Shown here in pieces: positions 17,703-20,751 of a stretch of 64,000 nucleotides of DNA (the first letter of the stretch is position 1; each line of letters starts with the position of its first letter). The translations under genes and the position numbers were made by a program. The notes under the pieces are model-generated. The model was not told where the DNA came from, did no database searches, and worked only from the letters and a program-made list of their open reading frames with translations. Origin of the DNA: Acinetobacter sp. ANC 3781 (GTDB lineage: Bacteria; Pseudomonadota; Gammaproteobacteria; Pseudomonadales; Moraxellaceae); contig NZ_SJOH01000008.1 in NCBI RefSeq assembly GCF_004331285.1, positions 1-64,000 on the forward strand. The letters run 5' to 3'.

Positions 17703-17972
17703 TTAACGACGTAAACCTAAAGCAGCGATCAAAGCGCTGTAACGAGTAGTATCTTTACCTTTAAGGTAGTCAAGAAGCTTACGACGTTGGTTAACCATAC
17801 GGATAAGACCGCGACGGCTATGATGGTCGTGTTTGTGTTCTTTAAAGTGACCTTGCAAATCATTGATTTGTGCAGTCAACAAAGCTACTTGTACTTCAGG
17901 TGAACCAGTGTCGTTTTCAGCGCGAGCATATTTAGCAACGATCTCTGCGCGATCTGCGTTTGTTAAAGCCAT
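17703..17972 (-). CDS. rpsO: 30S ribosomal protein S15
   Basis: An 89-residue protein with the conserved S15 core: [31 protein letters not shown] and [13 protein letters not shown]15 binds the central domain of 16S rRNA early in assembly and in several bacteria also represses its own mRNA. Length is exactly as in E. coli (89 residues). CGGAGA lies just upstream of the start. It heads the rpsO-pnp unit; truB, which precedes rpsO in E. coli, is absent here. Confidence 0.98.
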
Positions 17973-18063
17973 TCGATTTCTCCGAGATGCTTAAAAAATT
18001 ACATATGATAGGAATCAATTGATTACTCAATTGACTGCCGTGCATCACTACAGCAAGTGCGCT

Positions 18064-18092
18064 ATTTTAAGGGAAAAGTCGGGTGATTGCAA
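18064..18092 (-). promoter_or_regulatory. Sigma-70 promoter of rpsO
   Basis: On the - strand TTGCAA (18087-18092) and TAAAAT (18064-18069) are separated by 17 nt, about 90 nt before the rpsO start, leaving a 5' UTR long enough for translational control. Confidence 0.7.
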
Positions 18093-18287
18093 AAATAGAA
18101 ACGTGTTTTCATCTTTTTATTTCAATTCACTGATCCGCTATAGCCTTTCTTTTTCTATCTGTAAATTTAACTTACCAATTTAGCAATAAAATCACGCCTT
18201 ACCCTTCCATCTTTTATTATTTTTCTATTTTGAGAAGTATCCTCTTAAGTAGTCGTATCCATTGCCTATATCACACGAATAAAAGAT

Positions 18288-18322
18288 AAAAAAAAGCCCA
18301 AGCTAGGCTTGGGCTTTTTTGC
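18288..18322. terminator. Intergenic bidirectional terminator hairpin
   Basis: AAGCCCAAG and CTTGGGCTT enclose a 3-4 nt loop, with six T on the + side and eight or nine on the - side. No protein gene reads into it directly from either side, which is why an RNA gene is proposed. Confidence 0.85.
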
Positions 18323-18400
18323 GCTGTAGTTTCTTATGTTTTAATAATTATTATTTTATTTATAGTAATAATGTTCGCTTTTCGCGGTTATTATTATAAA
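18288..18400 (-). ncRNA. Candidate small RNA 2 (about 95-100 nt)
   Basis: No protein is evident in 18.10-18.95 kb. On the - strand a TATAAT (18393-18398) is followed by AACCGCGAAAAGCGAAC, which can fold into a CGC/GCG hairpin, then A/T-rich sequence that can pair ATTATT/AATAAT, then GAAACTACAGCGC, and finally a perfect AAGCCCAAG/CTTGGGCTT terminator stem with nine T. The -10 box to T-run distance is about 98 nt. The architecture and several sequence blocks match candidate 1 some 400 nt upstream. A good -35 box is not seen. Confidence 0.4.
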
Positions 18401-18697
18401 CAATCCTTGTGTAACTGGTACTTCCCTGTGAAATTGATTTTGACATAAAGCTTTGTGTAAAGAAGTCGCCTTTTGCGTATCTATTTGTAAGCTTTTACGT
18501 ACATTAATTATTTTTTTATTAATGCTATACTGTGATTAATTTATCATTTCCCTTTAAATACAATAACTAATTGGTCATATACTATCTATTACATACAGAA
18601 TCTGACATTTGAGCCCAAGTTAAAATACACCGATCAATATTTTTAGTGTTCATAACAGATTAAGTAAATCATATTGTGAAAAGCGGTATTTTTTGCA

Positions 18698-18830
18698 TAT
18701 AAAAAAGCCCTGTAGTCTCTCCCAAAACTACAAGGCTTAGCGGCTGTAAGTTTCCTCTTTTTACTTACTTCACTGTAAGTTCGCTGTCTTTCGACATTAT
18801 TATTATATTTTATGGCGATTTTACCCAACT
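18698..18830 (-). ncRNA. Candidate small RNA 1 (about 95 nt)
   Basis: On the - strand TATAAT (18802-18807), with a possible -35 near 18823-18830, precedes a transcript predicted to start near 18795. It opens with GTCGAAAGAC (a GNRA-loop hairpin) and contains CTTAC, GTAAG and a second CTTAC, which allow two mutually exclusive hairpins, one presenting AGAGGAA in its loop. It ends in a terminator stem AAGCCTTGTAGT/ACTACAGGGCTT with six T. The terminator would also serve recD, 210 nt upstream, so an extended recD 3' UTR is the main alternative. Confidence 0.45.
18701..18739 (-). terminator. Terminator downstream of recD and of small RNA candidate 1
   Basis: The stem AGCCTTGTAGT/ACTACAGGGCT on the - strand has an 11-nt loop and is followed by six T. 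Confidence 0.85.
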
Positions 18831-18950
18831 TTCCGTGTTGAGCTTTTTATGTGCAGCCATCATCTCAAAAATGATCTTAAAGCTCTATGCGTCAATTTCT
18901 CGAATCGATGTAAGCAATTTCGTACAAAAATAAAGATTAGTTATTTATTA

Positions 18951-20726
18951 TTAACAATCGAGGCAAGAATCCAATAAATTGTTAACCTTCTCTAATACTC
19001 CACTTTTCCTCATGGTTTTAACGGTTAAAGATTGTACTAAAGCATCTTGATCTGCCAAAAGACTCACCACCTTTTTGGCACGGGTGATAGCGGTGTACAG
19101 TAACTCTTTACTTAATAAATCCTTTGCTGTTTCATCTAAAACAACTGCGGTATGAGTAAATTCCGAACCTTGCGATTTATGAATCGTCAGTACAAATGCC
19201 GTTTCTATACTTTTTGGTAAACGGGTAGCCGGCACCCATTTTTCCAAACTGGGGAAATAAACTTCAAATTGTGACTGTCCATCTCGACTGCGTTTAAAGC
19301 AGATCCCGATATCACCATTTGACAAACCCAGCTGGTAATCGTTATAGGTCATCATCACTGGACGACCGACATACCAATCCCCTTGCTTGCTCATCTGTAA
19401 TGATAAAGCCTCCAGTAAGCGCTGTTCGACTTGCAAATTCAGTTGGGTCAAACCCAAAGCGCCATGTCGGATGGCGGCCAAAATCCGATAATCATCAAAA
19501 ACTTTAACTACTTGCTGCACCCAAAGTTCAGGTTCATCGGCAGTTAAATAGCTTTTCAGTGCATTAACATAAGGCTGATAACCCAACATCAGTTTGTCGT
19601 AATAGGATGTTCGATCAAATTGCTTGGACATATTCGGTGGCAGATATTCCAGTTGAATCTGGTCATCCATTTCGGATTGAAGAGATACCGATTGAATTTC
19701 ACTTGGACGAACCACTTGCTGGGCAAACTTTTCTAGCAATGTTGCGCCATTTTGAGTAGCTTGTTGCGCCTGAATAAATTTCGCCATTTGCCCAATGAGT
19801 GCACCTTCCTTAAAACGGCGACTGCTGACCAAGTTCACTCGATTCTCGGCTAAAGCGGGAACTTGTTGTAAATCTGCCAGCACCGAACCGACATCTACAG
19901 CAGCCAACTGATCTGCATCACCCAATAAAATTAAACGTGCATGATCTGGCACTGCAGACAGCAGCATGTTGGCCAAACTTAGGTCCAGCATCGAGGCTTC
20001 ATCAATTACAATCACATCATAGGGTAAAGGTTGTTTGGCATGAAATCGCGGCTGATAAGTCGTTCCTAAACCCAATAGACGGTGAAGCGTAATAGGACTA
20101 AGTTGTTTTAAATCATCAGTGACCAAATCTTGTAACTTTTCATCGTTCAGCGAGTTTTGCAGCGCCTCTTTCATGCGCTGCGCAGCCTTACCGGTGGGGG
20201 CTGCCATGGCAATGCGGATACTCGGCATCGCCTGGTTCAGCACGGCAATAATACGTGCCAGGGTGTAAGTTTTTCCGGTTCCCGGCCCACCAGTAATGAT
20301 ATTTAAGCCTTGCTTCGCCACCATACTTAAGGCTTTTAGTTGATGTTCATCGCTCAATAAATTTCGATAAGCCGAAATATCAACAGCTTCAATAGCTTGC
20401 TGCTTTAAACGCGCAACTTGCTGCGCCAAAGATTGTTCCAGCGCCCAATAGCGATACAAATACAATCTTTGATCTTCATATACAAAGGGAGCGATATGTT
20501 GCTGAATATTGGCTACTGAGACTACTAAATCATTCAGGGTGTCGGCTTGCGCTTGAGTTGCAGAAATACAACTGTCGCCTTGTTGAATTGCTTCCAGAAC
20601 CTGTTCAATAATATCATGGTCATTTTCATCCTGTGCTGCCTGACTAAAAGGCTTCTGGCGAATAAACCGACTCCAAGTGCTGATCCATTCAGCGCTTTGA
20701 TCATCTTTATATTGTTTATTTTCCAC
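18951..20726 (-). CDS. recD: Exodeoxyribonuclease V subunit alpha, RecD
   Basis: About 591 residues. RecD is the 5'-3' superfamily 1B helicase motor of RecBCD, which processes double-strand ends up to Chi. Walker A GGPGTGKTYTL is near residue 147, followed by VIDEASMLDL (Walker B), LLGDADQLAAVDVGSVL and the C-terminal motif TIHKSQGSEF...LLYTAITRAKK. I place the start at the GTG at 20726, which has AGGA 7 nt upstream; another GTG at 20750 is in frame. It follows recB by about 60 nt. Confidence 0.93.
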   Translation of the reverse strand: MENKQYKDDQSAEWISTWSRFIRQKPFSQAAQDENDHDIIEQVLEAIQQGDSCISATQAQADTLNDLVVSVANIQQHIAPFVYEDQRLYLYRYWALEQSLAQQVARLKQQAIEAVDISAYRNLLSDEHQLKALSMVAKQGLNIITGGPGTGKTYTLARIIAVLNQAMPSIRIAMAAPTGKAAQRMKEALQNSLNDEKLQDLVTDDLKQLSPITLHRLLGLGTTYQPRFHAKQPLPYDVIVIDEASMLDLSLANMLLSAVPDHARLILLGDADQLAAVDVGSVLADLQQVPALAENRVNLVSSRRFKEGALIGQMAKFIQAQQATQNGATLLEKFAQQVVRPSEIQSVSLQSEMDDQIQLEYLPPNMSKQFDRTSYYDKLMLGYQPYVNALKSYLTADEPELWVQQVVKVFDDYRILAAIRHGALGLTQLNLQVEQRLLEALSLQMSKQGDWYVGRPVMMTYNDYQLGLSNGDIGICFKRSRDGQSQFEVYFPSLEKWVPATRLPKSIETAFVLTIHKSQGSEFTHTAVVLDETAKDLLSKELLYTAITRAKKVVSLLADQDALVQSLTVKTMRKSGVLEKVNNLLDSCLDC

Positions 20727-20751
20727 ACAGTTATCCTCAAAGTTATCCACA
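20719..20751 (+). promoter_or_regulatory. Three DnaA-box-like 9-mers spaced 12 bp apart
   Basis: TTTTCCACA (20719), TTATCCTCA (20731) and TTATCCACA (20743) lie in exact 12-bp register at the recB-recD junction. The last is a perfect consensus DnaA box and the others differ by one base. The stretch overlaps the recD start region, where it encodes a repetitive VDNF/EDNC/VENK, so coding repetition could also explain it. Confidence 0.4.

Follow-up and report, generated by a model that had tools for sequence, protein, structure and literature searches.

What are the two small genes on the minus strand between rpsO (17703-17972, -) and recD (18951-20750, -) of Acinetobacter sp. ANC 3781, and which regulatory system do they serve? 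The locus lies in a 64-kb window, by which we mean the whole stretch of DNA that was analysed, and an earlier note made from the letters alone had described it as a tandem of two related small RNA genes. Here we place the pair most likely in the Gac/Csr system, where both genes probably encode output RNAs of the Gac/Csr (Rsm) switch that titrate CsrA.

Two small RNA genes between rpsO and recD

The sole open reading frame of at least 60 aa that overlaps 17973-18950 (18643-18828, -) lies atop the gene called unit 1 here, and the species alignment carries frame-breaking indels where it does so, in agreement with the earlier reading of the region as free of protein genes. The minus strand has two strong terminator-like sites, at 18738-18705 and 18320-18290. 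Together with transcripts published for A. baumannii, these terminators uphold the claim of two discrete minus strand small RNAs, and two such genes are present between rpsO and recD. The features are as follows.

18909..18926, -, GacA/UvrY box of unit 1, TGTACGAAATTGCTTACA (exact-site search)
18859..18864, -, putative -10 of unit 1, GATGAT (inspection; about 7 nt before a 5' end that fits the published 154 nt)
18701..18852, -, unit 1 RNA, predicted 152 nt (probe match, published size, covariance model R1)
18823..18843, -, 5' hairpin of unit 1 with loop ACGGAAA, candidate CsrA site 1, GGA at 18832-18834 (covariation)
18797..18807, -, TATAATAATAA, A-rich linker inside the unit 1 RNA, taken for a -10 in the earlier note (alignment)
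18753..18755, -, second GGA of unit 1, AGAGGAAAC (part of the search pattern)
18740..18753, -, AAACTTACAGCCGC block of unit 1, partly common to unit 2 (alignment)
18705..18738, -, terminator of unit 1 with loop GGGA, GGA at 18720-18722 (terminator scan)
18486..18503, -, GacA/UvrY box of unit 2, TGTACGTAAAAGCTTACA (exact-site search)
18437..18442, -, putative -10 of unit 2, CAAAAT, inferred from conserved columns of alignment A2
18288..18430, -, unit 2 RNA, predicted 143 nt (probe match in A. nosocomialis L072)
18423..18425, -, first GGA of unit 2 (AGGGA), candidate CsrA site at the 5' end (alignment A2)
18404..18406, -, second GGA of unit 2, ACACAAGGATTGT (hairpin partly supported)
18321..18333, -, GAAACTACAGCGC block of unit 2 (61 of 94 loci carry an AC..ACAGCGC block after the box)
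18290..18320, -, terminator of unit 2 (terminator scan)

In A. baumannii AB5075, Weiss et al. (2016; PMC5320573) reported ABUWs076/art70 (160 nt) and ABUWs077/art71 (154 nt), both on the minus strand with 3' ends 454 nt apart and both detected by Northern blots; ABUWs076 is the sRNA99 of an Hfq RIL-seq study (PMC12802169). The ABUWs077 probe matches unit 1 at 24 of 25 positions in A. nosocomialis L072 and at 15 of 25 in the window itself, and the ABUWs076 probe matches unit 2 at 23 of 25 and 16 of 25 positions, respectively. In L072, unit 2 is predicted at 161 nt and the 3' ends of the units lie 450 nt apart. Judged by probes, strand, order and spacing, on which the identity with the A. baumannii genes rests, unit 1 is the ortholog of ABUWs077/art71 and unit 2 that of ABUWs076/art70 (sRNA99). 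Aar was considered as an identity and rejected: Weiss et al. locate it near 862 kb in AB5075, far from the pair at about 3.57 Mb, and it is the pair that the probes fit. ABUWs076 was said to be confined to A. baumannii and missing from A. baylyi (PMC5320573), whereas we find unit 2 in other Acinetobacter species too, though poorly conserved; its orthologs were called by position, box and 3' block rather than by overall similarity. Neither RNA appears among the multi-copy groups of Table 2 of that paper, to which the pair therefore does not belong, and the sections consulted state no Gac or Csr link for either.

More widely, the two units share the GacA box, a CACAUAA-like start and an AACU(U)ACAGC(C)GC block, and the motifs quoted in the earlier note are all present where it placed them. 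A comparison with Rfam returned no Csr/Rsm family for the pair, either at the gathering threshold or at E<=10 over 18250-18950, where there were weak matches only (the best to AgvB, 26 bits). Base pairing between unit 1 and unit 2 was considered and rejected: the duplex scored -40.3 against -34.6 (sd 4.9) for shuffles, 14.5% of which were as low.

Conservation, GGA sites and Hfq

Csr/Rsm RNAs typically have a GacA/UvrY box upstream, GGA in hairpin loops and a Rho-independent terminator, and are encoded by more than one gene per genome. The pair resembles RsmX/RsmY/RsmZ and CsrB/CsrC in its upstream boxes, GGA hairpin loops, terminators and gene number, and differs from them in having two or three GGA sites and no Rfam model match; classical Csr RNAs carry more sites.

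Unit 1 was found by BLAST in 147 of 149 genomes of the genus, and the covariance model R1 matched 59 of 59. When the draw was widened to the family, R1 matched 26/26 Acinetobacter and 5/93 other genomes. Three of these five matches belong to the sister genus g10 and follow recD (a fourth g10 genome had no match); all three loci (L191-L193) have a box-like TGTGAG-N6-CTCACA, followed 74 nt later by the first GGA, just as in the window, and also carry the ACAGCCGC block. The matches in g7 (L195) and g9 (L194) were discarded, comprising the terminator part only with no adjacent RecD. Within Acinetobacter, an exact search with a 24-base core gave 93 unit 1 loci. The rpsO start, where found, follows the core by 0.4-0.9 kb in some species, 1.8-2.2 kb in others and 3.8 kb in one, and this variable distance indicates gains or losses of sequence next to the pair.

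From 88 unique unit 1 sequences, all bearing the search core, 43 with less than 90% identity were aligned. Covariation between species, which had been named beforehand as a check, is evident: in the first hairpin, six of the seven pairs have both-side changes and 95.7% of cells are paired, and the covariation score of the two unit 1 helices was reached by 0/500 shuffles. Both the GGA of the 5' hairpin loop and the GGGA terminator loop are invariant (43/43 each). The second GGA is invariant in the 93 loci because it is part of the search pattern, and it is not general among divergent copies. The earlier hint at CsrA pointed in the right direction, but the main GGA site is the 5' hairpin, which lies outside unit 1 as it was then drawn.

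As a check outside the search core, we chose 20 divergent or extra copies of unit 1. In the 14 with an adjacent RecD match, the box has 0 mismatches in 8, 1 in 2, 2 in 2 and 4 in 2, and the 5' GGA is present in 10 of the 11 that are readable; in the six without a RecD match in the stretch, the box has 0 mismatches in 1, 1 in 2 and 4 in 3, and the 5' GGA is present in 3. ACAGC before the loop occurs in only 6/20 copies. The mutually exclusive CTTAC/GTAAG stems proposed for unit 1 are both possible in the window, but the segment forming the second partner is not general, and GAGGAA before the terminator loop is found in 1/20 copies. The GGGAGAGA of the terminator loop is present in 20/20 copies (L224-L243), even where little else remains, though GGGAGAGA is itself part of the query or model by which these copies were recovered. 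Extra copies with no RecD match in the stretch were seen at L048, L196, L197, L232, L233, L234, L241, L242 and L243; some extra copies have no box and some are shortened.

For unit 2, alignment A2 holds 31 sequences with less than 90% identity drawn from the 61 of 94 loci that have a box (<=2 mismatches) and the 3' block, the other 33 being left out. ANARGGA is invariant in 31/31 sequences against a mean column identity of 60%, and, apart from the promoter, the 3' block and single A columns, what stays invariant in A2 is GGA. ARGGA lies near the predicted start in 66 of 88 boxed loci, namely in 60/61 with the 3' block and 6/27 without it; the 5' ARGGA site is restricted to a single type of unit 2. 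Another type (L045, L050, L059, L069, L087 and others) lacks the 3' block and has a hairpin loop AGAGGG where GGA is expected. Around the second GGA, the hairpin is partly supported, with 71.6% of cells paired and a covariation score reached by 1/500 shuffles. ANGGA in a conserved hairpin loop is a feature of unit 1 and, in part, of unit 2.

Plain GGA counts, which hardly rise above those of shuffles, weigh against titration of CsrA, as does the type of unit 2 that has no such site. Unit 1 has 3.35 GGA against 2.60 in dinucleotide shuffles (43 RNAs) and unit 2 has 2.08 against 2.04 (86 RNAs), with ANGGA at 1.60 against 0.94 in unit 2 and fewer than two GGA in 18 of the 86 unit 2 RNAs. Conservation of GGA by position was adopted after these counts had shown no real enrichment and is, in this sense, a post hoc choice.

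It is conceivable, though in our judgement unlikely, that these are Gac-controlled, Hfq-dependent RNAs without CsrA action, which would work by mRNA pairing via AACU(U)ACAGC(C)GC or by CrcZ-like occupation of the Hfq distal face, with the GGA sites incidental. According to the RIL-seq study, no sRNA is more prevalent than sRNA99 in the Hfq chimeras of A. baumannii; it is mostly RNA1 and has three potential AAN motifs. The authors compare it to CrcZ rather than to Csr RNAs, and the main text has no GacA, GacS or Rsm (PMC12802169). The longest AAN runs of unit 2 exceed those of shuffles, as would suit an A-rich, CrcZ-type decoy of the Hfq distal face, the 3' block, possession of which was a selection criterion for A2, ranks in that alignment with the most conserved portions of unit 2, and unit 2 is not enriched in GGA. 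Set against this are the invariance of GGA in A2 outside the promoter, single A columns and 3' block, the location of the unit 1 GGA in a covarying loop at the same offset in g10, and the recD-adjacent divergent copies, which retain the GGA hairpin and many of which no longer have the 3' block. The likeness of sRNA99 to P. aeruginosa CrcZ lies in its A-rich motifs and its RNA1 position on Hfq (PMC12802169). The pair differs in its GacA boxes and GGA sites. CrcZ itself is driven by CbrB and RpoN.

GacA/UvrY boxes at the pair and across the genome

Upstream of each unit lies an exact TGTACG-N6-CTTACA, its centre about 65 nt ahead of the predicted start, compared with -183 at E. coli csrB (PMC4682653); the upstream GacA/UvrY box of Gac-controlled Csr/Rsm sRNAs is thus found at both units. 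The pattern used for searching, TGTAMG-N6-CTTACA, also allows C at position 5, where the published UvrY consensus TGTAAGNNNNNNCTTACA has A, and csrB and csrC are by far the strongest UvrY targets (PMC4682653). Within the 64-kb window, two boxes were observed against 0.02 expected, and 1/100 shuffles also reached two.

The 3.39-Mb genome contains seven exact boxes (reversed control 0), six of which precede stretches with 3-10 GGA. Counted 60-330 nt after the box start, which for unit 2 runs partly beyond the RNA, the GGA numbers are 10 at L138, 9 at L140, 8 at L141, 7 at L142, 3 at unit 1, 5 at unit 2 and 1 at L139. The boxed, GGA-rich loci L138, L140, L141 and L142 (G000:C2:45145, C13:58641, C14:47819 and C20:24065; 7-10 GGA) are candidate Rsm-type RNAs of this genome. 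A sense-strand terminator after the box was flagged by the terminator scan at L138 and L141; at L142 the scan flagged an opposite-strand terminator only, though inspection by eye reveals a hairpin with T behind it. No terminator after the box was flagged at L140, which is perhaps a broken copy. The boxes of L140 and L142 sit within mechanical ORFs, and L141 and L142 have ACGACAGGAGTTATACC in common. Across seven related loci, the other boxed ones included, Rfam gave no match at gathering. At L139 (G000:C5:108676-108693), the box precedes an ORF of about 395 codons with a signal-peptide-like start, possibly a direct GacA target outside the RNAs.

Across the genus, the box was found in 148 of 149 genomes, with a reversed control of at most 2 per column and palindromic TGTAAG sites scored on both strands. 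The best site at unit 1 is exact in 82 of the 92 testable loci and has 1 mismatch in 9 and 4 in 1, and at unit 2 it is exact in 63 of 92 and has 1 mismatch in 19, 2 in 6, 3 in 3 and 4 in 1; simple shuffles of the same stretches never gave a 0-mismatch site. Two exceptions were seen: G031 (assembly 90% complete) has no exact box and none before unit 1, and G076 has a unit 1 without box and without 5' GGA, yet both encode GacA and CsrA. The present genome encodes CsrA, and its best GacA match scores 267 bits (next 82), short of the family cut-off of 280. GacA and CsrA are encoded in all 12 relatives tested; therefore, the phyletic pattern is uninformative. Taken together, control by GacA is well supported.

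Could another regulator of the NarL/LuxR type bind the boxes instead, the pair being conserved regulated sRNAs outside the Gac system? The GacA family model does give 16 additional, weaker matches in the genome, but the box fits the published UvrY consensus (PMC4682653), and most of the few genomic boxes precede GGA-rich stretches; we regard this as quite improbable. That unit 1 is only the recD 3' UTR is very improbable indeed. Its predicted start in the window lies 99 nt after the end of recD on the same strand, and in 90 of 93 loci the match to recD stops 178-224 nt short of the core (the others being L048, a copy elsewhere, and L105 and L110, at contig edges). However, unit 1 has its own box at a near-fixed distance, always 146-152 nt before the GAGGAAACTT core in the 91 of 92 loci with 0-1 mismatches; extra boxed copies (0-1 mismatch) without a RecD match in the stretch exist, e.g. 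L197 and L242; and the AB5075 transcript is discrete (PMC5320573).

We give next to no credence to the original model of two duplicated RNAs of about 95 nt starting at TATAATAATAA, whose motifs are present and whose stretch scores above shuffles in the window, since the published RNAs are 154 and 160 nt long (152 and 143 nt predicted here, not about 96), conserved RNA structure lies upstream of the proposed -10, which falls within the RNA at both units, and TATAAT is found in the zone in only 33/94 unit 1 and 6/88 unit 2 loci. Duplication was likewise abandoned: the TATAATAATAA/AGCGAAC similarity scores 29 in the window against 19 (sd 3) for shuffles, but the middle similarity is limited to a few loci, GCGAAC occurring in unit 2 of 7/88 loci and 42.5% of 80 unit-1/unit-2 pairs reaching an empirical p<=0.05.

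A probable Gac-controlled RNA pair in Acinetobacter

Kulkarni reportedly predicted Csr-type RNAs for Acinetobacter in 2006. Two RsmA-regulating RNAs predicted in A. baylyi ADP1, flanked by ACIAD0018/0019 and ACIAD2750/2751, are described in PMC5568370, which cites an earlier prediction. In a 2020 review (PMC7366521), RsmX, RsmY and RsmZ are bracketed for A. baumannii, which denotes discovery by genome inspection, and the sRNA partners of CsrA in this species are said not to be experimentally characterised. Our literature search listed no paper tying art70, art71 or sRNA99 to Gac or CsrA.

Returning to the Gac/Csr reading, the mechanism that we infer from the observed genes, boxes, conservation and covariation comprises GacA activation, CsrA binding and titration. 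Phosphorylated GacA would bind the 18-bp box about 65 bp before each start and turn on two RNAs of about 150 nt. Unit 1 would present ANGGA-type sites in the conserved loop of its 5' hairpin and in that of its terminator, and unit 2 at its 5' end and again about 20 nt later; CsrA would bind these sites and be drawn off its mRNA targets. The A-rich AAN linkers may let Hfq bind too, and for the unit 2 ortholog sRNA99, Hfq association has been shown by others (PMC12802169). Judging from sequence, CsrA binding by unit 1 is moderately supported and that by unit 2 less so, Hfq binding being the better documented property of unit 2.

It is also possible, although doubtful, that the pair acts as a two-way decoy, in which one Gac signal would raise RNAs whose GGA hairpins sequester CsrA and whose AAN linkers simultaneously do the same to Hfq. 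According to the RIL-seq study, A. baumannii reportedly requires CsrA as an essential protein on rich medium (PMC12802169). If the two-way decoy is true, the same switch would tune both CsrA and Hfq, which are both reported to be critical for A. baumannii growth. With art71 and sRNA99 as candidate CsrA partners that have defined control sites, the Gac-Csr circuit of the genus becomes testable, and sRNA99, the busiest Hfq RNA of A. baumannii, gains a proposed role.
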